Assembly (NCBI GenBank): GCA_029882975.1
Contig: JAOUJW010000005.1
Location: 1-64,000 of the forward strand
DNA: 64,000 nt
Direction: 5' to 3'
Source: Gammaproteobacteria bacterium
GTDB taxonomy: Bacteria > Pseudomonadota > Gammaproteobacteria > SZUA-152
The position numbers were made by a program, and so were the translations under genes. The stretch's first letter is position 1; each line of letters starts with the position of its first letter. Positions 16,812-36,437 of the stretch are shown in pieces. The notes beneath the pieces were generated by a model. That model was not told the DNA's origin and made no database searches. It worked only from the letters and a program-made list of their open reading frames with translations.

Positions 16812-16834
16812 TTACTCTCTGTTTGTACTTCTAA

Positions 16835-18407: not shown

Positions 18408-18443
18408 ATCCTCTTGGGTGAAGCCAGATTTTTAAGGACGAAC

Positions 18444-21056
18444 TCATGGGCAGACGGAAATGGAGCTGATCCACTCGGAAAGGAGTGTCGTTGCTTCTGT
18501 ATCGACAAGACCGGTTCCGAGTTTGGGCATTCTGTTTCCGTCTGTGCTGTTCATTCTGACTAATAAAACAGATTCACCAGGCACGCCTCGTTTTATAATC
18601 TCGGGGTTTTGTATCGATAAGTCACCAAACGAGGGGGCGTGACCGCAAGTATAAGTCAGATTGAAGGGGGTCTGAAATCGCAAATCCATAGGACCTCTAC
18701 CGCCGCCATTCGGGCGGTGACAGGTAGAGCAATTGGTGTGTAGATAACTTCTACTGCGCTGTTCTAATGTTGCTCCGGAATCATTTAAGCTGAAGAAGTG
18801 CATGGATTGAACAGTACTGTCGATGGGATTGGTGAATAGACCAATACTATTGTAGGTTTCCAATTGATTGGCTGTTATGAAAGTACTACGAAACGCCGTG
18901 GTATGATTTAGCTGTGAAGCTTCGGGGCCAATACTAAAATTTGCAGCTTCTGTATGGCACTGGAAACACTCCGCTCTGCTGGGGTAATGCCAATTGACGC
19001 CTTCAAAAAGTTTGTCTTTTGCATTGGCTAACAAAACAGCGTCGGTAGGATTGCCTGATGTGTCGTACTGCCATTCATAGCTGTATCCCCCCCAACCCGT
19101 TTGATGCAACATTAACAGTCGCGTTTCAAAAATTCGCTTGTTCAAATAGAAATTTTTCACTAAAACGGTCCCGCTCGGGAATACAAAGTCACCGTCTACC
19201 GGGTCAATGGAGATGGTCGTGCCGTCGGGAATGGCAAAATATCGGTGTTTTTCCGCACCATCTGACCAAAGAGGGGCAATGGGTTCAAAGGGGATAAGTC
19301 CTGTCGCCGGTTCTAAAGGATTAGCCGGATTTACACAACCGGTTTCGGATAAATGCGTTGGAATACTGGGTGTCGCAGCACCTGAGGCCGAAACGAGTTT
19401 TAGAACATTTGTACCCGCCGCTCCTGTTTGCAAGAGATACAGTTCTCCGGTATTGTCTTCGGCAAAGCTGGGGGTGAATCCTCCTTTATTTGGAATCAAT
19501 TCAGAGTAATCGTATTGACCATTAGTGTTTAATGTCAAAGCTCTTAAGGAATACCCGGAATAGTAATCGGTAAAAATATAAACACCTTGTAACCATGCCA
19601 GATCGTTGCCCCGGTAAACATAACCGCCCACTACGGATCTGCCATCGCTTCTGCCATAGCTGTAAACGGGGAGGCTCATTCCAACGGGCGGTGTGCACGG
19701 CGTGGTGTTTGGGCCGCTGATAAAGCACCTGGGGCCTTCCATATGGTTCCAGCCGTAGTTTCCCCCGGACTCTATGAAATTGATTTCCTCAAAGCTGCCT
19801 TGGCCCACATCTCCCAACCAAAGATCGCCGTTAGAGCGATCAAAGCTCCAGCGCCAAGGGTTACGCAATCCATAGGCAAATATTTCCGGGCAGTTTATCG
19901 TATTGTCTTGAAGGTCCCGACACTGTCCGGGAGGTGATGCGTCGCTTAACTTAGGATCGTCCGGGCAGGAGCCGTTAGTGCCTCGACACGAAGGAGGACC
20001 ACTGAAGGGGTTATCCGGGGGGATGGCATACCTTGCGCCATTACTGCTGTTATCCACGTCTATTCTTAATACGGCTCCCAGCAAACTGGTAGTATCCTGA
20101 CCGTTTAAGTACTGGTCGCCCGATGCACCGCCATCACCAAAACCAATATACAAATATCCATCGCTTGGACTGAATGCGATATTTCCGCCATTGTGGTTGT
20201 CGACCGGTTGGGCCACTTCAAGTATTGTGTATTCGGAATTGGGGTCAATCAGTCCGGTAGCAGGATTGTAATTCCAACGCGAAATAGTGGACTGTCGACC
20301 GGCTGCTTCTGAGGTAAAAGACAAGTAGATATAATTGTTGTTCGCAAAATCAGGATGAATGGCTATTCCTAAGAGACCCAGTTCAGAGTTCCCAACATAA
20401 TCCAGTCTCGTGTTTGGTATTTTTAAAGCTTCAGTTAAAGTGGATGTGTTAGGATCATTGGCAAAGGTAAAAACGGATCCTTGCTGGGTTACTAGAAACC
20501 AAATTGTAGCGTCATTGGGCGGTTGTTTCATTGCGATGGGGGTTTCGCCTGAACCCAGCGCCGGCAAATTGGGAAATGCGTGACTCAGTTCTACGGAACC
20601 ACCGGTTGGGGGTGCATTGTCCGGCGCTATACAAGCAGTGTTACCAGGTCGAGAACTTAGTCCACTGGCTCCGACGTGGGTCACGATCACTTCTATTTCA
20701 TCAAAGTCAGTTAATGTTCCATCGCTCACGGATAGCCTTATCCCATATACTCCGGTAGTGGCGAATGTCGCATTCGTGGCAGCCAGATTGGAATCGCTGA
20801 ACGAGACATTAGTGCTGTTTTCAGTGGTTACGGTCCAACTGTAGAACAGTTCATTCGCCCCGTCGTAATTGATTATTGAAGACAAAGAGTCACTGGACGG
20901 GAGTAAATGATTGTGATCTTGGTTAGTAATCGTTACGGATAAGACGCTGTTAGCCGGGCCTGAGCCAGCCGAGTCGTCATGGTTTTTTCCCTGGCACGCA
21001 GTTATAAGGAAAGCGAAAATTCCCAGTGAAACTAACTTTGTCGTGTGTAATATCAT
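18444..21056 (-). CDS. Lipoprotein with PKD-like, glucose/sorbosone dehydrogenase and di-heme cytochrome c-like domains
   Basis: 870 residues. The signal peptide ends in the lipobox LITAC (Cys21). Residues 35-130 look like a PKD/Ig domain. Residues 165-555 are a six-bladed glucose/sorbosone dehydrogenase domain (ELGLLGIAIHPDF; DNHNGGNIAFSPSDGYLYIG; YGLRNPWRWSFD), a fold that binds PQQ in soluble aldose dehydrogenases. The C-terminal 300 residues contain two CxxCH heme c motifs, CFQCH near 697 and CSTCH near 775, with a Met-rich tail. The arrangement suggests periplasm-facing oxidation of a sugar, with electrons passed within the same chain to heme c. It converges on the kinase gene with a 36-bp gap. 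PQQ binding and the substrate are inferred. Confidence 0.82.
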   Translation of the reverse strand: MILHTTKLVSLGIFAFLITACQGKNHDDSAGSGPANSVLSVTITNQDHNHLLPSSDSLSSIINYDGANELFYSWTVTTENSTNVSFSDSNLAATNATFATTGVYGIRLSVSDGTLTDFDEIEVIVTHVGASGLSSRPGNTACIAPDNAPPTGGSVELSHAFPNLPALGSGETPIAMKQPPNDATIWFLVTQQGSVFTFANDPNTSTLTEALKIPNTRLDYVGNSELGLLGIAIHPDFANNNYIYLSFTSEAAGRQSTISRWNYNPATGLIDPNSEYTILEVAQPVDNHNGGNIAFSPSDGYLYIGFGDGGASGDQYLNGQDTTSLLGAVLRIDVDNSSNGARYAIPPDNPFSGPPSCRGTNGSCPDDPKLSDASPPGQCRDLQDNTINCPEIFAYGLRNPWRWSFDRSNGDLWLGDVGQGSFEEINFIESGGNYGWNHMEGPRCFISGPNTTPCTPPVGMSLPVYSYGRSDGRSVVGGYVYRGNDLAWLQGVYIFTDYYSGYSLRALTLNTNGQYDYSELIPNKGGFTPSFAEDNTGELYLLQTGAAGTNVLKLVSASGAATPSIPTHLSETGCVNPANPLEPATGLIPFEPIAPLWSDGAEKHRYFAIPDGTTISIDPVDGDFVFPSGTVLVKNFYLNKRIFETRLLMLHQTGWGGYSYEWQYDTSGNPTDAVLLANAKDKLFEGVNWHYPSRAECFQCHTEAANFSIGPEASQLNHTTAFRSTFITANQLETYNSIGLFTNPIDSTVQSMHFFSLNDSGATLEQRSRSYLHTNCSTCHRPNGGGRGPMDLRFQTPFNLTYTCGHAPSFGDLSIQNPEIIKRGVPGESVLLVRMNSTDGNRMPKLGTGLVDTEATTLLSEWISSISVCP

Positions 21057-21703: not shown

Positions 21704-22468
21704 TTATGCACTATTCGTTTTGGTGGAATATTTACCAATATTTGTAAACATTGGACTATTTACATAGTGTAGTTTGTTGCACTGCAGTAGTAGGTAGTCT
21801 CCCAGCAACCAGTCTATGGGTGTGTGGTTGTGGTGCCGATAGACGAATTGGATAAATGGCAATAGATGCTGCATTTGAAACAGCAGGCCATGAAACCCTC
21901 CCATAAGGTAGGTAGGGCCGGGGGACCAGAAGCGACGTTTCTCGAACTTTAACGCGATCCAGTGGGGATGTTTTTGTGCCACTTTGGCTCGGGCACGGTT
22001 CAGGTTTTGAATACTGAATGTGTTGGAATTGACGACGATATCGTCTTCAAGGTGAAGGTAATACTTCCAATGGCCATAGTGATGGTGAACAGATTGCATC
22101 AGGTGCGCGGTGTCCGTGGCGAGTTTCGATTTCCAGTTTCCGTACTCAAGCTTATTCTGAGTAGGGGCGTTTTCAGGCTTTGCTATTGTGGGAGGATTGG
22201 CAATTTGGAGAAAACCCTCTTCCATCGCTTTGCAAAAATGCTGTGACAACCGGGTGAAAACCCGGTCTCGTGTCTGAGCGTCGGTGTCCGCCAGCAAGAC
22301 GATCAAGCGATGATGACGACGTTGTTCCGCCGATAGGCATTGTATCAGGCTGTCAATTGAACGGACAAAATACTGTTGTTCCAGCTTGTTACGCCACTTT
22401 ACCGGCATTCCTATCGCCAACGGAGTTTCCTCTACGTTTAGGGGAGATTTTTCAGGGAATAATCTCAA
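21704..22468 (-). CDS. GT54 (MGAT4/GnT-IV)-like N-acetylglucosaminyltransferase
   Basis: 254 residues aligning along most of their length with the catalytic domain of animal MGAT4, which adds a beta-1,4 GlcNAc branch to the alpha-1,3 arm of N-glycans. The run begins AIGMPV near residue 18, then SIDSLIQCL, LIVLLADTD, ANPP, YYLHLEDDI (EDD at 141-143, metal/UDP-sugar site), LMGGFHGLLFQ and the diagnostic PIDWLL (217-222), ending MFTNIGKYST. There is no signal peptide or membrane helix, unlike the Golgi enzyme, so it should act in the cytoplasm. The start is a TTG with AGAGGA 7-8 bp upstream; no ATG exists before the upstream in-frame stop. It diverges from the ALG11-like gene. Exact linkage is inferred. 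Confidence 0.8.
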   Translation of the reverse strand: MRLFPEKSPLNVEETPLAIGMPVKWRNKLEQQYFVRSIDSLIQCLSAEQRRHHRLIVLLADTDAQTRDRVFTRLSQHFCKAMEEGFLQIANPPTIAKPENAPTQNKLEYGNWKSKLATDTAHLMQSVHHHYGHWKYYLHLEDDIVVNSNTFSIQNLNRARAKVAQKHPHWIALKFEKRRFWSPGPTYLMGGFHGLLFQMQHLLPFIQFVYRHHNHTPIDWLLGDYLLLQCNKLHYVNSPMFTNIGKYSTKTNSA

Positions 22469-22562: not shown

Positions 22563-23795
22563 ATGCTAAAACCAAAGATTTTGTTACTGCACTACGACTT
22601 GAATCCACACGGAGGTGGCAACGGGGTGGCTGTCTGGACGCTACAAGCGCTGGTGGAACGTTATGATGTGGGGGTGTTGCTTTGGCAGGTTCCGGACTGG
22701 GATTCCGTGAATCGCTTTTTCGGTACCCATGTTGATGAAAACCACGTTTCGGTGTACCAGTTACCTGTCAGCACCCGGCGTTGGATAGGGCGCATTCCAG
22801 GCAATCATGCACTGTTGGGATTGAGCGCCATGGCACGTTATAGCCGTCGCTTGCAGAAAAAACACGGATACCATTTAGTGATAAGCACTGCGAATGAAGT
22901 GGACTTTGGCTCACGCGGGATTCAATATATACATTTTCCCGCGGCTCAATTACCTAGGCCTGATCTGGAGTTGCGCTGGTATCATCAGATTTGGGGAGTA
23001 ATGTCGGCCTACCGAATGCTCTGTCGATGGGTAGAGGGCCGCCGTACTGAACGGGTTAGGGGAAATCTCACCTTATGCAATTCGGATTATATTGGCCGTA
23101 TGTTTCAGTCGCTGTATAAGAGCACAGTGCAAACTCTGTATCCACCGGTCCATGGCAATTTTCCTCATATTCCTTGGGATCAAAGACAAAACGGCTTTGT
23201 GTGTATTAGTCGCATATCCCCGGAAAAGGCGTTAGTGGAGATTATTACAACAGTTGAGCAAGTCCGCGATAAGGGTTGGGATATTAAACTGCATGTTGTG
23301 GGAACGGCAGGTCCTGGTAAATACGCGGACTCCATACGTGGCTTGGTCCACAAACACACCAGTTGGATTCGTTTACACGAAGGATTGACACGTCAAGAAC
23401 TGGTTCAACTTGTGGCAACACAGCGTTATGGAATCCATGCTATGCGAGGGGAGCATTTTGGTATGGCGGTGGCTGAAATGCAGAGAGCAGGATGTATTAC
23501 CTTTGCCCATAATAGTGGTGGACCTGTGGAAATATTGGCAGGTGACGAGCGTTTACTTTACGATGATCCAGCGCAGGCCGTGGTAAAAATAGACGCCGTT
23601 TTATCGGATGATGCCAGTCAACGGATGTTGAATCAGCAGGCATTGGAACGCGGCGGACATTTCAGCGCTGATTCTTTTATGTGTGGTATGCGAGCGGCCG
23701 TACAACAATGTCTGCGCGAGGAGAATAAACCGATGGCAATAAACACGGCACCTACAGATACAGCGCAGAGCATAGAGCCCGACGTAAACGTTTAG
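22563..23795 (+). CDS. GT4 glycosyltransferase, ALG11-like mannosyltransferase
   Basis: A 410-residue GT-B fold enzyme. The N-terminal HYDLNPHGGGNGVAVWTLQAL recalls ALG11, which adds alpha-1,2 mannose to the lipid-linked core, and the C-terminal half has the ALG11-type GIHAMRGEHFGMAVAEMQ and AHNSGGPVEIL (nucleotide-sugar site). ISRISPEKAL is the usual GT4 interdomain segment. No membrane anchor is evident, although eukaryotic ALG11 has one. A Ser/Thr/Pro-rich tail of about 25 residues is not part of the fold. It overlaps the convergent sulfotransferase gene by 4 bp. The GT4 call is firm; ALG11 specificity is inferred from motifs and neighbours. Confidence 0.78.
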   Translation: MLKPKILLLHYDLNPHGGGNGVAVWTLQALVERYDVGVLLWQVPDWDSVNRFFGTHVDENHVSVYQLPVSTRRWIGRIPGNHALLGLSAMARYSRRLQKKHGYHLVISTANEVDFGSRGIQYIHFPAAQLPRPDLELRWYHQIWGVMSAYRMLCRWVEGRRTERVRGNLTLCNSDYIGRMFQSLYKSTVQTLYPPVHGNFPHIPWDQRQNGFVCISRISPEKALVEIITTVEQVRDKGWDIKLHVVGTAGPGKYADSIRGLVHKHTSWIRLHEGLTRQELVQLVATQRYGIHAMRGEHFGMAVAEMQRAGCITFAHNSGGPVEILAGDERLLYDDPAQAVVKIDAVLSDDASQRMLNQQALERGGHFSADSFMCGMRAAVQQCLREENKPMAINTAPTDTAQSIEPDVNV

Positions 23796-24547
23796 CTGGT
23801 GGACCGCATTCCGGGAGTAAACCCCATAGAGGAGGTTGAAACTGCACCAGACAGTGAGTCTATTTCGTAACCGATACTGTTTTCAAGGCTCCAATCCAGT
23901 TCCTGCTCAATATAGTTAACATCCTTTGGGGTGATTGGGGTATAGACTCTGGGACGGTACAACATTCGAAATCCTTTTTCTCCTTTATAGCCGAATTCGT
24001 TGTGGAAAAACCACGTGGTTTTAATTCCGAATTGATGCGCTATCTTGTTTAGAATAGCCTTAGGGTTGTCTTTCAAATCTTCATATCGCACATAAACTAT
24101 GTTTTTAACAGTTTCTTGCAAGGCTTGCCAATAATGGATTTTGGCGGTTCGCATTTGTATAACATTGTCAAATCGTTCACCTGTCTTGGGGTCTCTTTCA
24201 AACATCATCTCCGAGCCGTATACTGCATTCGACGGTAAGTTTTCCCAGTGTTCGTCCCAGATGCAGTGCCATTGGGCCCGAATAAATGCAGAGAAGTTCG
24301 CTTGGCGCAGCGCCGGCGTAGTGTGCCACGGTTGACGGTGTAAACTCCGCAGCCAGTCAAAAGGACCTCGGTATATCACTATAAAAAGGCAATGGTCGGA
24401 GTTCGTCAGATCTTTATCTGTAAAAAAGTGCTTCCATCCAAAATCCCATTGCACAGGCGTTGTTGGGTAGTTTTTTTGAAGCAAATGTTCCAAGTAATTG
24501 GTACCGGAACACCGTTCACCGTAAATCTGAATACTTTGGATACTCAT
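23792..24547 (-). CDS. Sulfotransferase family protein (PAPS-dependent)
   Basis: 251 residues. GERCSGTNYLEHLL at residues 10-23 is the P-loop-like 5'-phosphosulfate-binding motif, and IVIYRGPFDWLRSLHRQPW near 57-75 holds the Arg and Ser of the 3'-phosphate-binding motif. VRYEDLKDNPKAIL is the typical mid-domain motif of carbohydrate sulfotransferases. There is no signal peptide, so it is cytoplasmic. It is the last gene of a leftward operon (MurG-like, ABC transporter, this gene) with 3-4 bp gaps. In this setting it probably sulfates the lipid-linked glycan. The acceptor is unknown. Confidence 0.8.
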   Translation of the reverse strand: MSIQSIQIYGERCSGTNYLEHLLQKNYPTTPVQWDFGWKHFFTDKDLTNSDHCLFIVIYRGPFDWLRSLHRQPWHTTPALRQANFSAFIRAQWHCIWDEHWENLPSNAVYGSEMMFERDPKTGERFDNVIQMRTAKIHYWQALQETVKNIVYVRYEDLKDNPKAILNKIAHQFGIKTTWFFHNEFGYKGEKGFRMLYRPRVYTPITPKDVNYIEQELDWSLENSIGYEIDSLSGAVSTSSMGFTPGMRSTS

Positions 24548-24550
24548 ATA

Positions 24551-26323
24551 TTATTCCAACTCAGCAATGCGTCGAAACTGTTCGTTGCGCTGATTCAATT
24601 CTTCAAACCCACCGGCGTCCCGTAACTTCCCTTCGCTGAAAAACAGTACACGGTCGGTATGACGTACGGTTCGCAGGCGATGGGCTACCATGATAATTGT
24701 TTTTTCGCCATGCAAGGCATCCACGGCATCAATGAGAGATTGTTCGGTTTTATAATCCAACGAAGCCGTGGCCTCATCAAAAATCAATATCTGCGGATCA
24801 TGGTATAGCGCTCGGGCAATGGCTATGCGTTGACGTTGTCCACCGGAAAGACGTATACCCTGTTCCCCAACCGGCGTATCAACCCCTTGTGGTAATTGAG
24901 ATATGAACTCAAGAAGTTGTGCGGATTCCAAAGCGCGGTGCAGTTTTAGTTCATCGATTTGTTTTTCACCCAGAGCCACGTTACGGGCGATAGATTCGTC
25001 CAGGAGATAAACCGATTGCGGTACATAGCCGATGAGTTTTTGCCACAACTCCGGGTTTAAGGGCTTTCCGTCAATACAGATCTGGCCGCTGCTCGGGTTA
25101 ACCAGGCCCAACAGGAGATCTATAAATGTACTTTTTCCAGCCCCGGTGGGTCCGACGATGCCTATGGTTTCTCCTTTCTTGATGCTCACATTAATGTCTC
25201 GTAGAGCCTGGCGATTGCCCTCGGGGTAGGAGAAGCACACGTGCTGAAACTCCAGTCCCTGAGACAATTCAATGCGATGTTGGTTTATCGGCAGCTTTGA
25301 ACCTGTGGATTGTTGGAGTTGGTCCCAGTCCGGTTGTATGTTTTCCAATGCGGCAGACCCAAATTTAATGTTGTTCCAATGGTATACAATTATGTGAAAA
25401 GAGGGGAGCAAACGAAATCCGGCATAAGTAAACAAACCCAGGAGGGGTATGAGTTCGTATCTGTTGGAAAACCACAATTCATGTGAAATTATGATAGTCA
25501 TGACGCCAAGGATAAAGACGGTTTCAACGGTTAATCTGGGTAAGACCGACAGTACGCCTCTGCGCGTGGTCACTCTATCCAATTGTGATTGCTGTTTTAT
25601 GTAACGTTGAATGAAAAATTCTTCCCTTTTTAGTATTTTTATTTCTTTTATCCCACGCAGGCTTTGCCTTAAGGTTTGCAGCAGTGTTTTACCATACTCA
25701 TGGGTTTGTTTTCCCCAGAGACTGTGGTATTTTTGCGTCATAATCAGAATGATACCCATCATCGCAGCAATGCTGACACCTGCCAGGAGGGTTACCATCG
25801 GTTCAGAATACAGCAGTACCGCAAGTACCCCCATGCAAACCAGGATTTCAGTACACATCGCTGTGGCAGACGCTAATACATTTCGACTGATGGCATTCGT
25901 CGAGTTTTGAATATTGCGTATTAATTCAGAAGAATTACGGGTGTAATGAAGACTGTAAGGCCCATTGAGGTAATGCGCCAACAGTTGACTGGCCATAGTC
26001 AGTGCTGATTGCTGTGTACAGCGTTCGCGTAGAAAGCTTTCATAGAGCCGCAAACTGTTTTTGACGAGGTATATTACTCCAATCAGGATACACAAGGTAA
26101 CGACAATCGATCCACTTTGTCGGTCTGTTGATGGGAAGAAATCAAAGGGCAAAGTGATTTGGCTTTGGTCCGGTAGTGTAATCGTACGTATCAAATAAAA
26201 AACGCTGATAACGGCAATGACTTCCAATACTGCTGCAGTTACGGCCAGTGGAATGAGTGTTAACCAGCTCTTTTTCAGCTTTCGATCAAGCAAAGACAAT
26301 GCTTGTATAATGGTGCTAAGCAT
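24551..26323 (-). CDS. ABC transporter (fused membrane and ATPase domains), PglK/MsbA-like lipid-oligosaccharide flippase
   Basis: A 590-residue half-transporter. Residues 1-320 carry about six membrane helices. The ATPase half has Walker A GPTGAGKST near residue 391, signature LSGGQRQRIAIARAL near 491-505, Walker B ILIFDEATASLD and the switch histidine in MVAHRL. The closest functional analogue by layout is PglK, which flips the lipid-linked heptasaccharide in Campylobacter N-glycosylation. It is packed between the MurG-like and sulfotransferase genes, and the only oligosaccharyltransferase in the window lies 6 kb away, which fits export of lipid-linked glycan. Substrate is inferred from context. 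Confidence 0.82.
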   Translation of the reverse strand: MLSTIIQALSLLDRKLKKSWLTLIPLAVTAAVLEVIAVISVFYLIRTITLPDQSQITLPFDFFPSTDRQSGSIVVTLCILIGVIYLVKNSLRLYESFLRERCTQQSALTMASQLLAHYLNGPYSLHYTRNSSELIRNIQNSTNAISRNVLASATAMCTEILVCMGVLAVLLYSEPMVTLLAGVSIAAMMGIILIMTQKYHSLWGKQTHEYGKTLLQTLRQSLRGIKEIKILKREEFFIQRYIKQQSQLDRVTTRRGVLSVLPRLTVETVFILGVMTIIISHELWFSNRYELIPLLGLFTYAGFRLLPSFHIIVYHWNNIKFGSAALENIQPDWDQLQQSTGSKLPINQHRIELSQGLEFQHVCFSYPEGNRQALRDINVSIKKGETIGIVGPTGAGKSTFIDLLLGLVNPSSGQICIDGKPLNPELWQKLIGYVPQSVYLLDESIARNVALGEKQIDELKLHRALESAQLLEFISQLPQGVDTPVGEQGIRLSGGQRQRIAIARALYHDPQILIFDEATASLDYKTEQSLIDAVDALHGEKTIIMVAHRLRTVRHTDRVLFFSEGKLRDAGGFEELNQRNEQFRRIAELE

Positions 26324-26327: not shown

Positions 26328-27476
26328 TCAGGCGCGATTTAACAACTGCTCACAATCTGTCACCAGGTTCTTGGCAGCGTCAGGGCGGTGAATTTCATGA
26401 ATGAGTTTGATATGTTCCATTCGTGCACTTGTATCGCGGAGTAAATCGGCAATTTGTTGGGCCAACGGTTCGGCCTGCCAATGTTGTTCACTGGTCCAAT
26501 GCAGTGATACCGGGTTAGTCAGTGCATGCTGAGAGATTCTTTGCTTGAGCGCTTCAAAATAGGCCGCAACATTTGCTGTTTGGTGATCGTCAGAAGCCTC
26601 CTTCAATGGGACAATCAAACACGGTACACCGGTTGCCGCCAATTCGGCTAAAGTAATGGCACCTGCACAACAAATGACGAAATCCGCTTCGTAGTAAGCT
26701 GCGGTGATGTCATCAATAAATTCGGTGATCTCCGCGTCGATTCCAAGGGCCAAATACGCTCTTTGAATCGCCTGGTTCTCCAGTTGGCCGGTCTGATGTT
26801 TGACTCGCAGTTTCACACCTTGCCGGGTCAGATGAGCTGCCAGATCCGGGCCGTGTCGGTTCAGGAATGATGAACCCAACGAGCCGCCGACAATGAGCAA
26901 ATTTCTGGATTGCTTAAGCGTATTGCACTGTGGGACGAAGTTTAAGAACTCCAGACGCAAGGGGATACCGGTGACGACTGTATTTTGTTCCAGTTGTTCT
27001 TGCGCCTCGGGCCAACCCAGATATATTCGTTTGCTGAATCGAGCCAATAAGCGATTTGCTCGCCCGGGAATAGCATTGGCTTCGTGCAATACGCAGGTAA
27101 TACGCATGGAATATGCGGCAAGTATCAAGGCAACCGAGCTGTAGCCGCCACAGCCAATAACTACATCGGGTTGTAAGGATTTAAGCAATCGTTTTGCTAA
27201 TACGAATCCTTTTAGAATAGACCACACGGCACGAAATTTGCCCTTCAATCCGGTACGCATCCATGGTGCACTGGGCAGATTGACGCTTTGCCAGTTTTCC
27301 CGTTGCAAAATATGCTCGGGTAATTGACCGGGTTCAGTGACGAAGACTATGGACGCTGTAGGAACTTCGTTACGGTATTGTTGGGCTATGGCTATTCCCG
27401 TGTTGATGTGACCTGCCGTGCCTCCTGCCGCTATAGCAATGGTGCGTTGAATGGGATTGGAGGCAAATTTTGTCAA
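26328..27476 (-). CDS. MurG-like GT28 N-acetylglucosaminyltransferase
   Basis: A 382-residue enzyme with the MurG hallmarks: AGGTAGHI near the N-terminus, VVIGCGGYSS, HEANAIPGRANRLL, GGSLGSSFLN, and the UDP-GlcNAc pocket CCAGAITLAELAATG...PLKEASDDHQTANA-like segment. MurG makes lipid II; ALG13/ALG14 are the split eukaryotic relatives that add the second GlcNAc to GlcNAc-PP-dolichol. Outside any cell-division cluster and in an operon with a flippase and a sulfotransferase, it is more likely a paralogue that makes GlcNAc2-PP-lipid. The only workable start is a TTG at 27476, with AGAGA about 8 bp upstream. Role inferred. Confidence 0.82.
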   Translation of the reverse strand: MTKFASNPIQRTIAIAAGGTAGHINTGIAIAQQYRNEVPTASIVFVTEPGQLPEHILQRENWQSVNLPSAPWMRTGLKGKFRAVWSILKGFVLAKRLLKSLQPDVVIGCGGYSSVALILAAYSMRITCVLHEANAIPGRANRLLARFSKRIYLGWPEAQEQLEQNTVVTGIPLRLEFLNFVPQCNTLKQSRNLLIVGGSLGSSFLNRHGPDLAAHLTRQGVKLRVKHQTGQLENQAIQRAYLALGIDAEITEFIDDITAAYYEADFVICCAGAITLAELAATGVPCLIVPLKEASDDHQTANVAAYFEALKQRISQHALTNPVSLHWTSEQHWQAEPLAQQIADLLRDTSARMEHIKLIHEIHRPDAAKNLVTDCEQLLNRA

Positions 27477-27649: not shown

Positions 27650-28666
27650 ATGCCTAATGACTGGTCCCGCACAGCCGTCCTTGTCTTTGCTTGCAATCGG
27701 CCTGCTTATTTACAGCGGAGTTTGAACAGTATTTTTTCCCATATGGCAGATCATGCACTACCTGTATTTGTATCTCAGGATGGCACGCATAAAGGGGTCA
27801 GCAAAGTCATTCAATCCTGGTCCCCCAATGTGTATCATTTACAGCACATGGGCAGGAAACAATACACCTTATCTCGTCACGTCAGGCCTGGATATTTTCA
27901 CATCGCATTACACTATAAATGGGCTTTAGGGCGTGTATTTGGCGCCGGCTACCGGAACGTGATTGTATTGGAAGACGATCTGGAAATAGCATCGGATTTT
28001 TATGACTATTTCAGAGCCTGTCTGCCGCTACTGGAGCAAGACCCAAGCATTTGGACCATATCCGCCTGGAATGATTTTGGCTATGGAGCCTACGCGCGAG
28101 ACCCTAAGCGCCTGTATCGTTCTGACTTTTTTCCTGGCTTGGGTTGGCTGATGACCGATGCACTATGGCGGGAACTGGGGGAGTCGTGGCCGGACGGTTT
28201 TTGGGATGAATGGATGCGAAAGCCCAAACAACGACAGGGCCGAGTGGCAATACGTCCCGAGGTGTCTCGAACCTATACCTTTGGGAAAAAGGGTGTCAGT
28301 GGTGGCCAGTATTTTAACAAATTTCTACGCAATATTCGTCTCAACCCCAAAGCCGTGGATTTCAAGGCCATGGACCTGAGCTATCTACTTAAAGATAAAT
28401 ACGACACTGAGTTTCAGCAGGCTGTTTCCAATGCTGACCGGGTGAAAGACCCGGCAGGCTGTATAAAGGATGCCGCCGCAGATCAAAAACTGGTGTATCG
28501 CAATGCCGATGAGTTCAAGCGTATTGCCAAACAATTTGGGCTGATGTGGGATTTTTGGTCGGATGTACCGCGAACCGCATACCAAGGGGTCGTGGTGGTA
28601 CCGAATGGAAATTATGATGTGTTTATTGTGCCTGATAATTTTGAGGCGAGTATTCCGAAAAGCTAA
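27650..28666 (+). CDS. GT13 (GnT-I/MGAT1)-like N-acetylglucosaminyltransferase
   Basis: 338 residues collinear with the catalytic domain of animal GnT-I, which adds the first beta-1,2 GlcNAc antenna to N-glycans in the Golgi. Counterparts of the structurally defined residues are present: Arg17 (CNRP), Asp44 (VSQDG), the metal-binding Glu-Asp-Asp at 108-110 (LEDDLEIASDF), the catalytic-base Asp186 (GFWDEWMR), and Val216-Ser217 (KKGVSGGQYF). Shared stretches include SIWTISAWND, DFFPGLGWLM, RQGRVAIRPEVSRT and PRTAYQGVV. It has no transmembrane anchor or stem, so it should act in the cytoplasm. It diverges from the MurG-like operon, and its 3' end overlaps the convergent GT2 gene by 44 bp. Family certain; the acceptor in this organism is inferred. 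Confidence 0.92.
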   Translation: MPNDWSRTAVLVFACNRPAYLQRSLNSIFSHMADHALPVFVSQDGTHKGVSKVIQSWSPNVYHLQHMGRKQYTLSRHVRPGYFHIALHYKWALGRVFGAGYRNVIVLEDDLEIASDFYDYFRACLPLLEQDPSIWTISAWNDFGYGAYARDPKRLYRSDFFPGLGWLMTDALWRELGESWPDGFWDEWMRKPKQRQGRVAIRPEVSRTYTFGKKGVSGGQYFNKFLRNIRLNPKAVDFKAMDLSYLLKDKYDTEFQQAVSNADRVKDPAGCIKDAAADQKLVYRNADEFKRIAKQFGLMWDFWSDVPRTAYQGVVVVPNGNYDVFIVPDNFEASIPKS

Positions 28667-29561
28667 CTCCAAGAGACCCCAAACACAGCCCCAGGCCCTG
28701 CATAGCGCTCATCAGCGCCAGAACACGCTCAGTGCGGGAGCGGGCGATTGCTATTCGGAAAATCGCTTTCAAAAGCGTCAGGCAACCGCGGACGATTTTT
28801 CGCGGTACTATGCTTACCCCGTATAGTTTTTTGTCAATTCCGGCTCGGGCGCAGCCTCCGCGGAAGCTCCGTTTAAGATTCCAACTTAAGGTCAACTTGT
28901 ATGGTTGGACATCCTCATTCACCACAGCATGTTGTGCATACACAATACGAAATCCCAACTTTTTGGCTTGAGCAGAGTAGTCACTGTCCTCGCCCCCGCT
29001 GAGGGCAAATTGTGGGTCAAACAGCAACTGACGGAATACATCGGCGTGAATCATTGAGTTTCCGGTATCCAATTCATAGCATTCATCACCATTTTGATAG
29101 TCTGTAGTTTCAAGAGCCGCATAGGACCAGGCCGGAGCATCTTGGGGAAAAAGCTTGTTGATTTTACCTGTAATCAGAAAAGCTTTATGACGCTGTTGAA
29201 TCTGCATTAGCTGTAATATCCAATCCGGTTGTACCGTTTCATCGTCATCCAGGAATATCAGCCATTGGGCATTGGTCTGCAAACAATGCGAAATCGCACG
29301 ATTGCGTGCGTAAGACAATCCGCGCTGGGGTTCCAATACATATTTGGCGGGGAACGGTAGGTGTGGTCGACATTCTGTAAAAATGTCGATTGCCGGTGTT
29401 TCTTCAGCGTTGTCAACCAGCAAAAGTTCCATTTGAATTTCTTTCGGCGGAACAAGTTTGCTCAAAGAGTCCAACGCAGCTTTGAGTAATACCGGGCGCG
29501 AGCATGTAAGAACTGCTATAACCAGCTTTGATTGGTTTGTGGAAGTTCGGGAGGGAGTCAT
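28623..29561 (-). CDS. GT2 family glycosyltransferase
   Basis: About 312 residues. VIAVLTCSRPVLLKAALDSL opens the GT-A fold, LEPQRGLSYARNRAI and WLIFLDDDE (DXD metal site) follow, then an ALSGGEDSDYS acceptor-side motif common in GT2 enzymes. I place the start at the ATG just after the ALG2-like stop codon (29561). An in-frame TTG at 29576 would overlap that gene by 14 bp and is possible. It is third in the ALG1-ALG2-GT2 operon. Sugar and linkage are not readable; the locus suggests an extra residue on the same glycan. Confidence 0.83.
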   Translation of the reverse strand: MTPSRTSTNQSKLVIAVLTCSRPVLLKAALDSLSKLVPPKEIQMELLLVDNAEETPAIDIFTECRPHLPFPAKYVLEPQRGLSYARNRAISHCLQTNAQWLIFLDDDETVQPDWILQLMQIQQRHKAFLITGKINKLFPQDAPAWSYAALETTDYQNGDECYELDTGNSMIHADVFRQLLFDPQFALSGGEDSDYSAQAKKLGFRIVYAQHAVVNEDVQPYKLTLSWNLKRSFRGGCARAGIDKKLYGVSIVPRKIVRGCLTLLKAIFRIAIARSRTERVLALMSAMQGLGLCLGSLGVSFSEYSPQNYQAQ

Positions 29562-29562
29562 T

Positions 29563-30777
29563 CTAGCTTTGTACAAGTTTCTGCAACATGGCGTTCAGGT
29601 GTACGCCAAATTTCTTGAGGCTGAAAAAGTTTTGCACGCGTTGTCTCCCGGCCATTCCTTCTTTATGTGCCTGGTGCGGATTCATCACATACTGAGCCAT
29701 AACGGAGGCAAAAACTTGCGGGTCGGGTGGGCATAAGTGCCCTGTTTGTTGCTCCACAATGGTTTCCAAAGGACCGCCACTATTGACCGCTATCACGGGT
29801 CGAGCCGAAGCCATTGCCTCCAGCGGTACAATACCGAAGTGTTCGTTTATTGGTGTATAGATGACGGCTAAGCACTGTTGCAGTAGCTGCAATTTTTCCG
29901 CTTCGCTACAGGGTTGCAGTAGATGTATGTGGTCTGTCAGTTTTAGACTAAGCACCAGTTGTTGCAGATGCTTCAGGGTTTGTTGTTGTTCGCTTAAGCG
30001 CGGGTCGCAACTACCGGCCAAAATCAAGCGCACGGTGGAGAATGTTTTCGAAGGCAATATTTCTCTCAGTTGAGCCATTGCTTTTACCGCCAATGGAAGG
30101 TTTTTTTTAGGATCGTACCGATTGATTGACAAAAATATTAATCCTTGAGTGTGATCCGCGTTCACAGGTTCAATGGAGAGATAGGGTTCCAGTTTTATAC
30201 CTGGATACAGAACCTCCGGGGTTTTCAAGCCGGGAAAGTACTCTTGTACGGTTGTTGCGGTGAACCGGCTGTTTGCCACCACTTTATGGGCGGCTCGTAG
30301 TCCTTTGGCTTCCAGGGTATCAATGGGGTGACGGTAACATTGGTAGAGGGGGGTTCGCGCCGGGGTCAATAGTTTATCGGGAAAATGGCAGTAAAATAAA
30401 ATCTTGCTGTTACACAATCGACGCAATAAGGGCAAAGGATGCGCTGTCAAGTCGCAAATTACAATGTCCGGCGGCTCCGGTAGACGGGATATTGCCCATG
30501 CTATGTAGAGCATGCGGACAATGGCACAGGGTGCCCGTAGACGTTGCCATAGACTGATGGGTAAAAAACTCCCGATTATGCGGATGTCCAATGATCCGTC
30601 GCGTGTTTCGGAAAAACTACGATGGGCGTCATGCTGTGCCGTATAAATACACACCTTGTGCCCCGCCTGTTGCAAGCAGATCGCTGCGTCCACAATCAGC
30701 CGTTCTGCTCCGCCGATACCGAGATCCGGATGCATAAAGGCGATGTTTAAAGGTTTAGCAGCGGTCGAGGAAGTCAT
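29563..30777 (-). CDS. ALG2-like GDP-mannose mannosyltransferase (GT4)
   Basis: 404 residues from the ATG that overlaps the upstream stop as ATGA. The longer frame to 30837 would run into the ALG1-like gene. Similarity to human ALG2, which adds the alpha-1,3 and alpha-1,6 mannoses of the core, runs end to end: FMHPDLGIGGAERLIVDAA, ILFYCHFPDKLLT, NSRFTATTVQEYF, LSINRYDPKKNLPLA, YTPINEHFGIVPLEAM and AVNSGGPLETI. The EX7E region that binds the donor is intact (HFGIVPLE). No membrane anchor is obvious. Co-translation with the ALG1-like gene fits consecutive steps in the pathway. Confidence 0.9.
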   Translation of the reverse strand: MTSSTAAKPLNIAFMHPDLGIGGAERLIVDAAICLQQAGHKVCIYTAQHDAHRSFSETRDGSLDIRIIGSFLPISLWQRLRAPCAIVRMLYIAWAISRLPEPPDIVICDLTAHPLPLLRRLCNSKILFYCHFPDKLLTPARTPLYQCYRHPIDTLEAKGLRAAHKVVANSRFTATTVQEYFPGLKTPEVLYPGIKLEPYLSIEPVNADHTQGLIFLSINRYDPKKNLPLAVKAMAQLREILPSKTFSTVRLILAGSCDPRLSEQQQTLKHLQQLVLSLKLTDHIHLLQPCSEAEKLQLLQQCLAVIYTPINEHFGIVPLEAMASARPVIAVNSGGPLETIVEQQTGHLCPPDPQVFASVMAQYVMNPHQAHKEGMAGRQRVQNFFSLKKFGVHLNAMLQKLVQS

Positions 30778-32018
30778 AGACGTGCCTGTACCGCATTGTC
30801 GCCGGCGTGATAAAGCTGGGGCAGTAATTGTTGCCACTGTTGCTCCCAGGTTACGGTAGTACGGGCAATCACTCTTTCTTGCATAGTCTGTAGCAGCTCA
30901 ACGGATTGGGGAGTCGCCAGTTGCAGAAGTTTTTGTGCCAATTGGCCCGGCGTTGTAAACAGAAAGCCGTTTATTCCATCCTGAATTTGTTCCTGCAGGC
31001 AAGGGCCGTAGTCCAGCGCACACACGACCAGCCCGGCGCCCTGCATATCAACAATTTTCATCGGCAGATCCACTTTGGAAGTGGAACGATGCAGACTTAG
31101 ACCCAGATGAGCGCATCCTACCAATTTAGGGTAGTCCGCAGCATCCAACCAAGGGGTAAATACTTGTATGTGGTTTAGATTAAGCCCGGTAAGTATAGGG
31201 CTCCAATGTGCTTTTGTTGGACCGTCACCCGTGAGCAGGAAACTGAAATTCAAACAAGACTGCTCGGCTATTTGTTCCAATAAGGGAAGGGCCTGTAATA
31301 GTAATTCAAAGTCATCATCGCTGCTCCAACTGCTGGGGCAGATAATATTGAAACTGTTTTTAAAATATTTCGGATACAGTGCACGAGTTTGAGCCAGTTG
31401 GGTAGGGGAGAGTGGAAAAAACATAGGACCGGGGCGGTCATGAAACACTTGGACCTGGGGCAAGCCCCACCGTTGTTGTAATTCCTGTTTCATACAAACA
31501 CTCACACAAAGATTGGTATGTGCCTTGGGTCCCATACGTTTTTCATAATATTTGACTAACTTAACTATCCAATGATCCTCGCCAAGACGCTGTGCCAGTA
31601 TGCTGAAACTGTAATTGTGCCAATCTAACACCAGTCGGGAGGATTTCAACTTGGCTACGGCGCGGCATATGCTGAATGCGGGTAGGGATGGTGGACATTG
31701 CATCAGTATCACATCCGCTTTTGGACTGCGTAGAAGGGCAATCAGCAAAGCGATACTTTGCCAAATCAATTGCAGGGCGGATCTTAAGCCGGTTCGTTTC
31801 ATTGTGAGATACCGGTCCAAAGGACGGATGAGGTACTGTTGTATATCGGAATGAATCTCCACCTGCGGATAAGGCGCGTGTCCGGCTTCACCGATTAAAC
31901 AGACCTTGGCCAGGTCTGCCAAAGCCAAAGCGTGTAACTGCATACGGGGGCTGCGGCCAAGATCGCCAAGCACCACAATCGTTATCGCGGGTTTTACCGT
32001 TTTTTTCAAATTTGGCAT
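30774..32018 (-). CDS. ALG1-like beta-1,4-mannosyltransferase (GT33)
   Basis: 414 residues aligning with eukaryotic ALG1, which adds the beta-mannose to GlcNAc2-PP-dolichol. Diagnostic stretches are VLGDLGRSPRMQLHALAL (residues 16-33), MQCPPSLPAFSICR, LVLDWHNYSFSI, KYYEKRMG...NLCVSVCMKQEL, SSWSSDDDFELLLQAL, and the donor-site run IQVFTPWLDAADYPKLVGCA then DLPMKIVDMQGAGL. The usual eukaryotic N-terminal membrane helix is absent or weak; residues 80-95 are hydrophobic and may contact the membrane, as in ALG1. First gene of a leftward operon, diverging from the oligosaccharyltransferase. A rare find in bacteria; family call strong. Confidence 0.9.
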   Translation of the reverse strand: MPNLKKTVKPAITIVVLGDLGRSPRMQLHALALADLAKVCLIGEAGHAPYPQVEIHSDIQQYLIRPLDRYLTMKRTGLRSALQLIWQSIALLIALLRSPKADVILMQCPPSLPAFSICRAVAKLKSSRLVLDWHNYSFSILAQRLGEDHWIVKLVKYYEKRMGPKAHTNLCVSVCMKQELQQRWGLPQVQVFHDRPGPMFFPLSPTQLAQTRALYPKYFKNSFNIICPSSWSSDDDFELLLQALPLLEQIAEQSCLNFSFLLTGDGPTKAHWSPILTGLNLNHIQVFTPWLDAADYPKLVGCAHLGLSLHRSTSKVDLPMKIVDMQGAGLVVCALDYGPCLQEQIQDGINGFLFTTPGQLAQKLLQLATPQSVELLQTMQERVIARTTVTWEQQWQQLLPQLYHAGDNAVQARL

Positions 32019-32174
32019 GGGTATCCCAGCTGGATCTGCTCAAAATGTAAGTGTCTTTGCTTTAAGTTGAATCAGCTAATGCAACTTTAGTACCTCCAAA
32101 CCGGGAAATACAGCGGGTTCTATCAGAACTGCTACACTTGCTTGGGTGTACCACAGACTCACTACGCGGATCGA

Positions 32175-34415
32175 ATGAAAAGTAAAAACGTTTGGTTGGA
32201 TTGGAGTGTATTGCTGTTGTTATTCTTGTTGTCATGCGCACTCAAGATATGGCAACCCTATTCGCAAGTCTTTACGGATAGCGGTGTGTTGTTTGTGGGA
32301 GCCGACTCCTGGTACCACATGCGTCGCATGGATTTTCTGTTGGCAAACTTTCCTTCGATTTTAGTACATGATCCCTATGCGTTCTTTCCTGGAGGGCAGA
32401 CGGTTGGAGTCGCCCCTCTATTCGACTGGTTGGTGGTCAGTATCGCTGTGTTGTTGGGCGCGTCTGCGGATGTTGGGGTGCTGGAAACCACGGCGGCTTT
32501 TGCGCCACCTGTCATGGGCTCCTTGGTCATTGTCCCACTGTATCTGGCAACAAAGACTTTGTTCAACCGGCAGATTGCCCTATTGGCGGCTGCTCTGTTG
32601 GCCGTGCAATCGGGACCGTATTTGTTAAGAACCACGCTGGGATTTGTGGACCACCATGCTGCGGAAGTGTTGTTCAGTTGTATCACCATGGCATTGTTGT
32701 TCCTGGCAAGCACAAGTACCGAAGCTGTTGCGAAGACCCGCCGATTCAGTCTGGCTGCTGGTATTGCTTTGGGGGCCTATTGTTTGAGCTGGAGCGGTGC
32801 ATCATTGATAGTCGCCGTAATTTCCGTATGGGTGTGTGTGCAGGCTTGTGTAGGGTTTGAGAAACCAAAATACCAATTGGATCTGATCTCAATAGTCGGC
32901 CCATGTGCTGTGGTGGCTTTGCTGCTGCTACTGCCATTTTGGGAGTTTTTGCCCCGACGAAACATTCATTTAACCGCCCTTATCCTTATGGTTTGTTTAC
33001 CATGGCTTATGCAGCTGAACGCACGGTTTGCAAGCAAAACTAACAGTCGGCGGTGGGTGTTTTATGGTTTGATTAGCTTTCAGGTTATCGTCGCGCTGAG
33101 CTTGTTTAAATGGCTTTATCCGGGGCTTTGGCACTCCGTCCTTACCGATATGGGGCGTTTCAGTGGTCAGGGTATCGGTAACACGGTCGCCGAGAGTACA
33201 CCACTGTTAACCATGTCCGGACAATGGTCCTTGTGGCCGGTCATAGACGGGTTCGGGTGGCTGTTTTTTTTGGGGTTAGCGGGCTTTGGCATCGTATTGT
33301 TGAGTATGTGGAAGGAATACCGTGCCGATAGAAGTTTGCTGCTGATATGGTGCTTTGCCATGTCGATTGTCGCATTGGGACAAAATCGATTTGGATACTA
33401 TCTGGCGGTTAACTTGTCTATTTTAGGGGCAATCGTGTGTTTGCAGATTCTGGCACTGGGGTTTTCCGGTTTGCGTCAACAAGTAAGCGAAACGGAACGG
33501 GGTATGAATGTGCAGATGTATCGACTCATGGCTGTGTTTATCGTCGTGGGTATCGCGTTTCTGCCACCGCTACAGTCGGCACTTGCCATGACGCGAACCA
33601 TGGCTGTACCGACACAAACATGGGTTACTGCATTGAACTGGTTACGGAATAACACACCCGAACCATTTGGGGATAATACCGTCTATACAGATCCGGTTAA
33701 ATTGGCGCACGCTTCAAAACACGAAGCTGCCTATGGCGTACTGGCTTGGTGGGATTATGGATATTGGATAACCCGCATAGGCCGACGTGTGCCAAACGCA
33801 AATCCGACCCAAAGTGGCGCAGGTAAAGTCGCGGGATTTTTATTGGCTGTCGATCCACAACAGGGGGAAAAACTGCTCCGTACAATGGGGAGCCGTTATG
33901 TGATCGTGGACAGCAGTCTAATGTTTTATATCAATCAACCCACGAAGTTTCCGGCGATAGTCGCTTGGGCGGGTCGGGAAACCCGGGAATTTTTTGAGTG
34001 GTACTATCAAGTAGGATCAGACGGAAGTTCCACACCGGTTTTGGGGATCAAACCGAATTACTATAAAACCATGTTGGCCCGTTTGTTCTATTTTTCAGCG
34101 AAACAGGTCTCACCGGAATCCAGTTGGGTGTATCAGTACGAGTGGCATACCGGGCAATCGGGCGAAAAATACAAAAGGTTGATAAAAAGAAGCGAATTTT
34201 CCTCTTATTCGGATGCGGAAGCCTACATTAAAGCTCATCCGGACCGGGCATTGGATTTGGTCTGTACGACACCAAGCAAAACCTGTATTCCAATAAAAGC
34301 AATGAAAAACTTTTCAGAGGTTTATCGTTCAGGATTTAAAGTAAAGGACGATAAGGGTAGGGTGAAACATTCACTTGGGTTGCGCATTTTCAGCACAGGA
34401 CAGGTACAGGAGTAA
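32175..34415 (+). CDS. STT3/AglB/PglB family oligosaccharyltransferase
   Basis: About 746 residues; the ATG at 32175 is preferred over an in-frame TTG at 32142. The N-terminal half is a series of about 12-13 membrane helices. Catalytic motifs of the family are present: GADSWYHMRR near residue 42 (first metal-binding loop), GFVDHHAAE near 158, and WWDYGYWI near 524 in the periplasmic domain, the WWDYG sequon-reading motif. The enzyme moves a lipid-linked oligosaccharide onto Asn of exported proteins. Length and loop style look closer to archaeal AglB and deltaproteobacterial PglB than to Campylobacter PglB. The next gene, 99 bp downstream, encodes an exported sequon-rich protein. Confidence 0.92.
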   Translation: MKSKNVWLDWSVLLLLFLLSCALKIWQPYSQVFTDSGVLFVGADSWYHMRRMDFLLANFPSILVHDPYAFFPGGQTVGVAPLFDWLVVSIAVLLGASADVGVLETTAAFAPPVMGSLVIVPLYLATKTLFNRQIALLAAALLAVQSGPYLLRTTLGFVDHHAAEVLFSCITMALLFLASTSTEAVAKTRRFSLAAGIALGAYCLSWSGASLIVAVISVWVCVQACVGFEKPKYQLDLISIVGPCAVVALLLLLPFWEFLPRRNIHLTALILMVCLPWLMQLNARFASKTNSRRWVFYGLISFQVIVALSLFKWLYPGLWHSVLTDMGRFSGQGIGNTVAESTPLLTMSGQWSLWPVIDGFGWLFFLGLAGFGIVLLSMWKEYRADRSLLLIWCFAMSIVALGQNRFGYYLAVNLSILGAIVCLQILALGFSGLRQQVSETERGMNVQMYRLMAVFIVVGIAFLPPLQSALAMTRTMAVPTQTWVTALNWLRNNTPEPFGDNTVYTDPVKLAHASKHEAAYGVLAWWDYGYWITRIGRRVPNANPTQSGAGKVAGFLLAVDPQQGEKLLRTMGSRYVIVDSSLMFYINQPTKFPAIVAWAGRETREFFEWYYQVGSDGSSTPVLGIKPNYYKTMLARLFYFSAKQVSPESSWVYQYEWHTGQSGEKYKRLIKRSEFSSYSDAEAYIKAHPDRALDLVCTTPSKTCIPIKAMKNFSEVYRSGFKVKDDKGRVKHSLGLRIFSTGQVQE

Positions 34416-34514: not shown

Positions 34515-36437
34515 ATGCTATTAGATCGCACCGTGAAAGAATTGAGCTTGATTTTGCTCAGCATTGTTACTGTCATGTCCATTGTACTAATTCAAACCCG
34601 GGAAGCCGTAGGGTTGTTGGCTATGAACACAACCGTGAGTTTGTGGACAGAGGCATACAATACCACCAATCCCACCGCATCAAATGTAGTTCTTGATGGT
34701 GCCCCCGTAAGTTTTCGAATAGATGCTGACTATGCCGCTGATGTGGAGGTTTTAACGGCGAACTTAACCGCCAAGTCAGCAGGCGCGGGTCTGAGTCCCA
34801 TGTTTAATACAACGACACTTAACATTACTCCACCTAATGTGTCTTCGATGTTGTCGTACCAAACAGCATTCGGTAGTGCCGGCAGTAATCGCCATATCGT
34901 ACTGAATATTGATAGCGGCAATACGATGATAAGTGAAACCGCACGAAGCACTTCAATTTTGGTGAAGGGGGTGGGTTTTACTTTAGGCGGAACCATTCCC
35001 TATACCCAAACCGTTCTGATTCAAGGTGGGAAAGCCACCAGTACCGTTGTCAATACGGCAGGCGTGGTAGCTATGCATGGCCACGTGGTGTCGCAAAATA
35101 CAAACGATACGATCAGTTATGACTGGAGTGGCAGTCACACGAGTATCACGGGCGCAGTCGTGGGCGGTACGAGCTCCGCCATTTTCAGTTTTAACCCGTC
35201 GGGTTTGGCTGCAGGATTTTACCCGATTCAATTAATGGTAACTGTTAACGACGGCGCCGGTGGAATCACCAATAAATCTGTGCAGCGGTTGATCCAGGTG
35301 GTTTCGAGTCCTCCCGTATTAAGCGCCGTCGCAGATACTGATTCCGATGGAATTGTTGACAATGTAGATGGCTATGGTGACCTGGATCAGGACGGTGTGC
35401 GAGATTACATGGAAAGCGATACGTTGATGAGTAATATTCATCTCATGCACACCCAGAATTTTGCTTATGCCATGGAGACAGCAACAAACTTAGCATTGCG
35501 TCTGGGTTCCGCCGCTTTTGTCACAGGAAATTCCACCCCGCTGATCAGTACTCAAAATTTTGCGGATTTTGGTGACGGCCTAGGCGGTGCAGCCAGTAGC
35601 GATACCTGGACTGCCAGTGGCGGAATCTACGATGTGGTAATTGGGAATCTACCCAGTGCCGGTGCGTCTGTCAGTGTGGCTGTTCCGCTGACCGTGGCCA
35701 TACCCGCCAATTCCGCGGTTCGTGTTTATGCCGGAGGAAGTTGGGGTAGTTTCAGCGAAGATGCCAACAATGTGCTGACTTCGGCTGCCAATGTGCTTGG
35801 TAGCTGTCCTCTGGCTTTGACTTATCAAGCGGGTTTGACCAGTGGGGATCACTGTGTGAAACTCACGGTACAAGACGGTGGCCTCAATGACCGCGATGGT
35901 GTTACCAACGGTGAAATTGCATTAAGTTTCGCTGTTGCACAAACTCCTCCTGCTAGCGGACAAGCACCGACTGCGCCGGTACTGGTTTCTCCTGCCGATG
36001 GTGCTACCGGAATTGATCCAGCTTCCGTCGTTTTTGAATGGGAACCGGCAAGCGATGCCGATGGAGACAGTTTAAGCTACCAGTTGCATATATGCAGCGA
36101 CGCAAACTTCACTGCTTGTACCAGCGTAAATGTAGCGTCTAATAGCAACGGGATTCTGCTCGCAGGACTGGGTGGTTTCGGATTGCTGCTGTTCTTCCCG
36201 GTGGGATTCACACGCAGACAATTGTGGTTGAAAACCATTCTGTCCGTCATTGTTCTGGCTTCCTTTAATTTGGTTGCGTGCGGTGGTGGCAGTGGTGGTG
36301 GCGGACAAGCCAATACCAATATTGCGCATACGGAGTCCGGTTTAGCGTCGACAACCACATACTACTGGAAAGTGACTGTTAGCGATGGAAACGGTAACAC
36401 GACGGAGAGTGTCATCCGAAGTTTCACCACCCAGTAA
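34515..36437 (+). CDS. Exported choice-of-anchor U-type protein with an internal sorting-signal/lipobox segment in a split FnIII domain
   Basis: 640 residues. Residues 5-30 are a hydrophobic signal sequence. A sequon-rich N-terminal region follows, then a PKD-like domain (about 165-265), a short Asp-rich calcium motif (SDGIVDNVDGYGDLDQDGV), and a region ending DGGLNDRDGVTNGEI typical of choice-of-anchor U proteins. The C-terminal fibronectin-III domain (QLHICSDANFTACT...TTTYYWKVTVSDGNG) is interrupted at residues 546-589 by a Gly/Leu/Phe helix, a TRRQLWLK basic patch, a second helix and the lipobox LVAC, then a Gly tract. Eleven Asn-X-Ser/Thr sequons are present. It follows the oligosaccharyltransferase and ends at a strong terminator. 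Function unknown; candidate glycoprotein. Confidence 0.8.
   Translation: MLLDRTVKELSLILLSIVTVMSIVLIQTREAVGLLAMNTTVSLWTEAYNTTNPTASNVVLDGAPVSFRIDADYAADVEVLTANLTAKSAGAGLSPMFNTTTLNITPPNVSSMLSYQTAFGSAGSNRHIVLNIDSGNTMISETARSTSILVKGVGFTLGGTIPYTQTVLIQGGKATSTVVNTAGVVAMHGHVVSQNTNDTISYDWSGSHTSITGAVVGGTSSAIFSFNPSGLAAGFYPIQLMVTVNDGAGGITNKSVQRLIQVVSSPPVLSAVADTDSDGIVDNVDGYGDLDQDGVRDYMESDTLMSNIHLMHTQNFAYAMETATNLALRLGSAAFVTGNSTPLISTQNFADFGDGLGGAASSDTWTASGGIYDVVIGNLPSAGASVSVAVPLTVAIPANSAVRVYAGGSWGSFSEDANNVLTSAANVLGSCPLALTYQAGLTSGDHCVKLTVQDGGLNDRDGVTNGEIALSFAVAQTPPASGQAPTAPVLVSPADGATGIDPASVVFEWEPASDADGDSLSYQLHICSDANFTACTSVNVASNSNGILLAGLGGFGLLLFFPVGFTRRQLWLKTILSVIVLASFNLVACGGGSGGGGQANTNIAHTESGLASTTTYYWKVTVSDGNGNTTESVIRSFTTQ

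Follow-up and report, generated by a model that had tools for sequence, protein, structure and literature searches.

Introduction

The formation of hybrid and complex N-glycans begins with GnT-I, their gateway enzyme. The Man3GlcNAc2 core is made in eukaryotes by ALG1- and ALG2-type enzymes, the GnT-I product is normally required by GnT-IV, and a C-terminal lectin domain is needed for the activity of animal GnT-IV on glycoproteins. Rabbit GnT-I has the disulfides 115-145 and 239-305. Of its catalytic residues, D213 is a metal ligand, D291 the candidate base and S322 a donor/acceptor contact (PMC7014118). GnT-I acts on the alpha-1,3-mannose of the Man3GlcNAc2 core (PMC4202792). In vitro, lipid-linked Man3GlcNAc2 is an acceptor for human MGAT1 from which the membrane anchor has been removed, and glycans of this kind were moved onto peptides with single-subunit STT3A (PMC10520871). 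Among genomes that included 52 bacteria and 15 archaea, genes of the GnT-I family (GT13, PF03071) were limited to animals and plants (PMC5225481), in keeping with the remark in the original prediction for the gene described here that the family is thought of as a metazoan/plant Golgi enzyme. The open-access papers searched contained no account of a bacterium with a GnT-I or a eukaryote-type N-glycan pathway of its own; CAZy may list bacterial GT13 proteins.

Here we analyze a GT13 gene in a 64,000-nucleotide stretch of gammaproteobacterial DNA (the window), and conclude that its product probably works as a beta-1,2-GlcNAc-transferase when this bacterium N-glycosylates proteins by a pathway built on eukaryotic lines.

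Results and Discussion

A bacterial GT13 protein with the catalytic residues of GnT-I

The gene had been predicted to encode a GnT-I homologue with the whole catalytic set conserved, and both parts of that claim were borne out. The Pfam PF03071 GNT-I profile matched the protein at 364.4 bits (E 9.9e-109), far above the cut-off of 25.4, over profile positions 95-425 of 434, and phmmer aligned residues 9-317 with rabbit GnT-I (1fo9) at 284 bits (E 1.5e-83), with an identity of 44% in the pairwise and 43% in a six-sequence alignment. Every residue named in the prediction is in register with the rabbit enzyme. Arg17, Asp44 and also His88 align with rabbit Arg117, Asp144 and His190 in both the pairwise and six-sequence alignments, Glu108-Asp109-Asp110 with the EDD metal motif Glu211-Asp212-Asp213, Trp185-Asp186 with Trp290-Asp291, and Val216-Ser217 with Val321-Ser322. 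The gene, the only GT13 copy found in a search of its source genome, thus encodes a genuine member of the family; its beta-1,2-GlcNAc-transferase activity and its acceptor are inferred. A structure predicted from a three-sequence input was of low confidence (pLDDT 60, pTM 0.54), with 1fo8, 1foa and 1fo9 as its top PDB matches (E 6e-23, TM-score 0.52).

The absence of introns and of a membrane stem was likewise confirmed, the intact 338-aa reading frame starting 8 residues upstream of the catalytic domain without a stem or transmembrane segment. Three of the four cysteines at the rabbit disulfide positions are replaced (145, 239 and 305 carry other residues), as expected of a cytosolic protein. 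Because the membrane stem and partner cysteines are missing, the enzyme should act in the cytosol on a lipid-linked glycan. It shares the whole catalytic domain and all catalytic residues with rabbit GnT-I/MGAT1 (1fo8/1fo9/1foa), but is bacterial, stemless, probably cytosolic and encoded beside ALG-type genes. POMGNT1 belongs to the same family (E 1.3e-37), but has EED and Leu-Asn where the window protein retains the EDD and Val-Ser of GnT-I.

Organization of the gene cluster

The GT13 gene lies in a cluster of about 13-15 kb, at 21.7-36.4 kb of the window (Table 1), a neighborhood that the original prediction does not mention. As the genes are on both strands, the cluster is not a single operon.

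Table 1. Features of the GT13 gene cluster (window coordinates).
Feature	Position	Strand	Details
GnT-IV-like glycosyltransferase (GT54/PF04666)	21704..22468	-	254 aa, catalytic domain only
GT4-type glycosyltransferase, weakly ALG11-like	22563..23795	+	PF00534; C-terminal motif EHFG...AHNSGGP
Putative sulfotransferase	23792..24547	-	PF00685 23.8 bits, barely above cut-off 22
ABC exporter, MsbA/PglK-like	24551..26323	-	PF00005 and PF00664
MurG paralogue (GT28)	26328..27476	-	TIGR01133 225 bits, below 250 cut-off
GnT-I-like glycosyltransferase (GT13/PF03071)	27650..28666	+	single intact ORF, 338 aa
GT2-type glycosyltransferase	28623..29576	-	PF00535 52 bits
ALG2-like mannosyltransferase (GT4)	29563..30837	-	similarity to human ALG2
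ALG1-like beta-1,4-mannosyltransferase	30774..32018	-	similarity to human ALG1
AglB/STT3-type oligosaccharyltransferase	32142..34415	+	757 aa, archaeal type (AglB)
Surface-type protein, choice-of-anchor U domain	34515..36437	+	99 bp downstream of oligosaccharyltransferase

Several of the glycosyltransferases resemble eukaryotic N-glycan enzymes, although the human ALG1, ALG2, ALG11 and MGAT4A sequences used for comparison were not taken from a database. Between the ALG1-like protein and ALG1, identity was 36% over 392 columns (E 4e-56); none of the other window glycosyltransferases gave a match to ALG1. The ALG2-like protein was 43% identical to ALG2 over 406 columns (E 1.5e-96), the next-best window glycosyltransferase reaching only E 0.016. 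The similarity of both is near full-length and to ALG1 and ALG2 rather than to GT4 enzymes in general; an ALG1-specific reference match was not found in PDB, Pfam or NCBIfam. The GT54 protein matched PF04666 at 90.8 bits (E 1e-25; cut-off 51.5), carries the EDD motif as LEDDI and was 28-30% identical to MGAT4A (E 1e-17). No lectin domain was found in it, PF04666 being its sole Pfam domain, and for want of that C-terminal domain we term it GnT-IV-like rather than GnT-IV. The protein at 22563-23795 matched ALG11 weakly (E 7e-6, 28% over 345 columns) and is possibly an alpha-1,2-mannosyltransferase.

The GT28 protein matched MurG structures (E 1e-43) and is best described as a MurG paralogue, not as an EpsEF/ALG13-14 type. 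It counts as an extra copy because the canonical murG (347 bits) is on another contig (C2), and it is a candidate for the role of ALG13/14, the addition of the second GlcNAc (chitobiose). The ABC exporter scored 288 bits with the MsbA model and 286 bits with that of PglK, both under the equivalog cut-offs, and is a candidate flippase for a lipid-linked glycan, which the sulfotransferase possibly sulfates. A tandem pair of WecA-type GlcNAc-1-P transferase paralogues, very similar to each other, was located elsewhere, at about 90.2-93.4 kb of contig C12 (locus 15217-18436), at the end of an exopolysaccharide/O-antigen-type locus.

The oligosaccharyltransferase matched TIGR04154 at 490 bits (cut-off 450) and AfAglB (5gmy) at E 4.5e-58, with the catalytic motifs, including the Asp of the first loop, aligned (GxDxWYxxR, GFxDHH, TVAE and WWDYG); its TVAE stands in place of TIAE (TIxE motif). 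The surface-type protein encoded downstream is a candidate substrate or partner, and its gene is followed by a strong terminator-like hairpin at 36461-36485. It contains 11 N-X-S/T sites versus 8.0 expected, which is not significant, and in 464 kb of sampled sequence there was no N-X-S/T enrichment in secreted proteins predicted with a crude signal-peptide rule (ratio 1.00 relative to shuffled sequences). In this same protein, a hydrophobic stretch ending in RR interrupts an Ig-like region and is directly followed by a lipobox-like VAC-GGG, and the NCBIfam model of the lipo-invert anchoring domain is matched weakly.

The window also encodes other proteins outside the cluster. At 3430-13578 a 3,382-aa protein has repeated leucine-rich-repeat (internalin-like) model matches below curated cut-offs and also tandem-95 repeats. 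An 851-aa protein with DUF4132 and DUF7737 is encoded at 50745-53300, and a dockerin type I domain protein (54088-55068) adjoins a 2,688-aa ORF.

Comparison of the cluster with described pathways revealed both shared and differing features. Like the eukaryotic ALG pathway (ALG13/14, ALG1, ALG2, ALG11, STT3), it unites ALG1-like, ALG2-like and STT3-type genes, but it has the MurG paralogue instead of ALG13/14, adds an ABC exporter and places GnT-I and GnT-IV relatives with the cytosolic assembly genes. With Campylobacter Pgl (PglB/PglK) and archaeal AglB systems it shares linked glycosyltransferases, a PglK-like exporter and an STT3-type transferase. It differs in that its glycan genes are eukaryote-like, and its transferase belongs to the archaeal AglB type (TIGR04154).

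Distribution of GT13 and its neighbors

The compared genome sets were samples, and partly consisted of incomplete MAGs. Searches of 56 relatives of the source genome, one of them from the same genus, found no GT13, and about 400 genomes elsewhere in the phylum gave only weak matches (about 20-29 bits) to part of the profile, which look like other GT-A enzymes. GnT-I, the ALG1-like gene, AglB (TIGR04154) and GT54 (PF04666) were absent from the same 24 genomes of the family and class, in which the ALG1-like query had one weak GT4 match. Such a joint absence would be expected if the genes had been acquired or retained as a unit. In a further 397 genomes from the phylum, the ALG1-like gene likewise had no match at E 1e-10.

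A scan of 84,980 species genomes for the motif DFFPGLGW returned 10 matches, two of which were real, full-length GT13 genes. Both were in Hyphomicrobiales MAGs, OFTM97 and OFTM346, that are probably of the Oslofjord tunnel set (PMC10732223). Their proteins are 38-43% identical to the window GnT-I, and have Ser-Ser or Thr-Ala where it has Val-Ser. In contrast to the source genome, no AglB, ALG1-like or GT54 gene was found in these two. The GT13 gene of OFTM97 is in a small island (12194-19092) with GT4, Mannosyl_trans3 (PF11051) and GT25 genes and that of an unassigned 391-aa protein, which is a second, different bacterial setting for the family. Alignment-based scans of genome contigs and viral contigs produced no further GT13 relatives. 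No GT13 gene was found in plasmids or phages, no plasmid match to the ALG1-like gene and no viral locus with the ALG1-like or ALG2-like genes; the best plasmid-borne prokaryotic matches to the ALG2-like protein were about 25-29% identical.

Proposed pathway

The pathway that we propose is built on what was observed, namely homologies, motifs that are intact, the linkage of the genes in a single host-like locus and their narrow distribution, from which the enzymatic activities, linkages, flipping, transfer and target glycoprotein are inferred. We hypothesize that a WecA-type enzyme makes GlcNAc-PP-undecaprenol, to which the MurG paralogue would add a second GlcNAc, the ALG1-like enzyme a beta-mannose and the ALG2-like enzyme the alpha-1,3- and alpha-1,6-mannoses. 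GnT-I would then place a beta-1,2-GlcNAc on the alpha-1,3-mannose of this lipid-linked Man3GlcNAc2-type glycan, its natural acceptor being supplied by the ALG1-like and ALG2-like genes beside it. A beta-1,4 branch on the same mannose may come from the GnT-IV-like enzyme, and the linked GT54 gene is consistent with the pathway given that GnT-IV normally needs the GnT-I product. The remaining glycosyltransferases and the sulfotransferase would decorate the glycan, the ABC exporter would flip it when finished, and the AglB-type transferase would attach it to Asn in proteins that are exported, with the 34515-36437 product perhaps foremost among them. GnT-I would thus act before flipping and transfer to protein, a reversal of the Golgi order for which the activity of anchorless human MGAT1 on lipid-linked Man3GlcNAc2 and the use of STT3A provide a biochemical precedent (PMC10520871).

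Several points count against such a pathway. There are no activity data, N-X-S/T sites are not enriched, and no GnT-II was found in the source genome, in a search that lacked a positive control. The genes are on both strands, the ALG and MGAT4A comparisons rely on sequences not taken from a database, and the ALG11-like and GT2 steps are unassigned. GnT-I would be blocked if the alpha-1,3 arm carried an alpha-1,2-mannose.

Alternative explanations

Eukaryote-type genes in a bacterium raise the suspicion of contaminating eukaryotic DNA or a chimeric contig. However, the genes have no introns and are on a contig of 230,827 bp, with bacterial genes on either side (sulfate permease, IclR regulator, phosphoketolase-like enzyme, nucleoside phosphorylase, malate synthase G and TRAP transporter). 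The 5.18-Mb genome, in 59 contigs, is 99.41% complete and 0.34% contaminated. For those cluster genes that were assessed, a set that left out the ALG1-like gene, codon usage was within 1 SD of that of 305 sampled genes, with the exception of the GT54 gene (z -1.8). The flanks, genome quality and codon usage lead us to reject contamination or a chimera, for which we see next to no chance, and they support the earlier view that this is a genuine bacterial gene. That the cluster is a decaying or silent relic, present without working, is highly improbable to us. It would be compatible with the lack of expression data and the absence of the GT13 gene from the same-genus genome, but all ten cluster proteins are open frames of family-typical length, and their catalytic motifs are intact where tested.

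A more serious alternative, if still an unlikely one, is that the mannose to which the GT13 enzyme adds beta-1,2-GlcNAc belongs to a surface polysaccharide or LPS instead of an N-glycan, and that a different product is made with the transferase and ALG-like genes. The lack of sequon enrichment fits this explanation, and so do the Hyphomicrobiales GT13 genes, which are near other sugar genes (in one genome GT4, Mannosyl_trans3 and GT25). Since those genomes have neither TIGR04154 nor an ALG1-like gene, bacterial GT13 need not serve N-glycans. In the window, however, GnT-I sits between the MurG paralogue and the GT2, ALG2, ALG1 and AglB genes, and an O-antigen-type locus is on a different contig (C12). 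N-glycosylation remains the function that we favor for the cluster.

Origin and significance

An origin in which the ALG1, ALG2, GnT-I and GnT-IV genes came from a eukaryote and were joined with an archaeal-type transferase is compatible with the N-glycosylation pathway, and we consider its chances to be just short of even. The patchy distribution among bacteria is in line with such an origin, as are the descriptions of ALG1 as a eukaryotic innovation of unknown origin (PMC4973528) and of GT54 as restricted to Metazoa (PMC12616123). On the other hand, the window GnT-I is equidistant from the rabbit (43%), plant (42%, sequence not taken from a database) and Hyphomicrobiales (43%) proteins, rabbit and plant GnT-I being 40% identical in the same six-sequence alignment, and the six-taxon tree was star-like, with support of <60% except for the Hyphomicrobiales pair. 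Because of these even identities and the poor support, no eukaryotic donor lineage could be singled out. The host-like codon usage, which also speaks against a eukaryotic source, argues against a very recent arrival. The identities and the tree thus favor neither of the two possible sources, an old family of bacterial genes or transfer from a eukaryote, over the other.

Only tentatively, and with the balance somewhat against it, do we put forward the fullest form of our proposal: that this bacterium natively makes a GnT-I/GnT-IV-branched complex-type N-glycan on a Man3GlcNAc2-type core, that the glycan is fully assembled on a lipid carrier in the cytosol before an AglB-type enzyme transfers it, and that the genes branch deeply enough to inform the origin of eukaryotic ALG1 and GnT-I. 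That a single bacterial locus holds relatives of GnT-I, GT54 and ALG1 together with an oligosaccharyltransferase challenges the views of these enzymes as exclusive to animals and plants, Metazoa and eukaryotes, respectively, and makes their origin testable. Glycoengineers, who have so far combined yeast and human parts to obtain eukaryote-like N-glycans, would also gain a route to them that is native to a bacterium.
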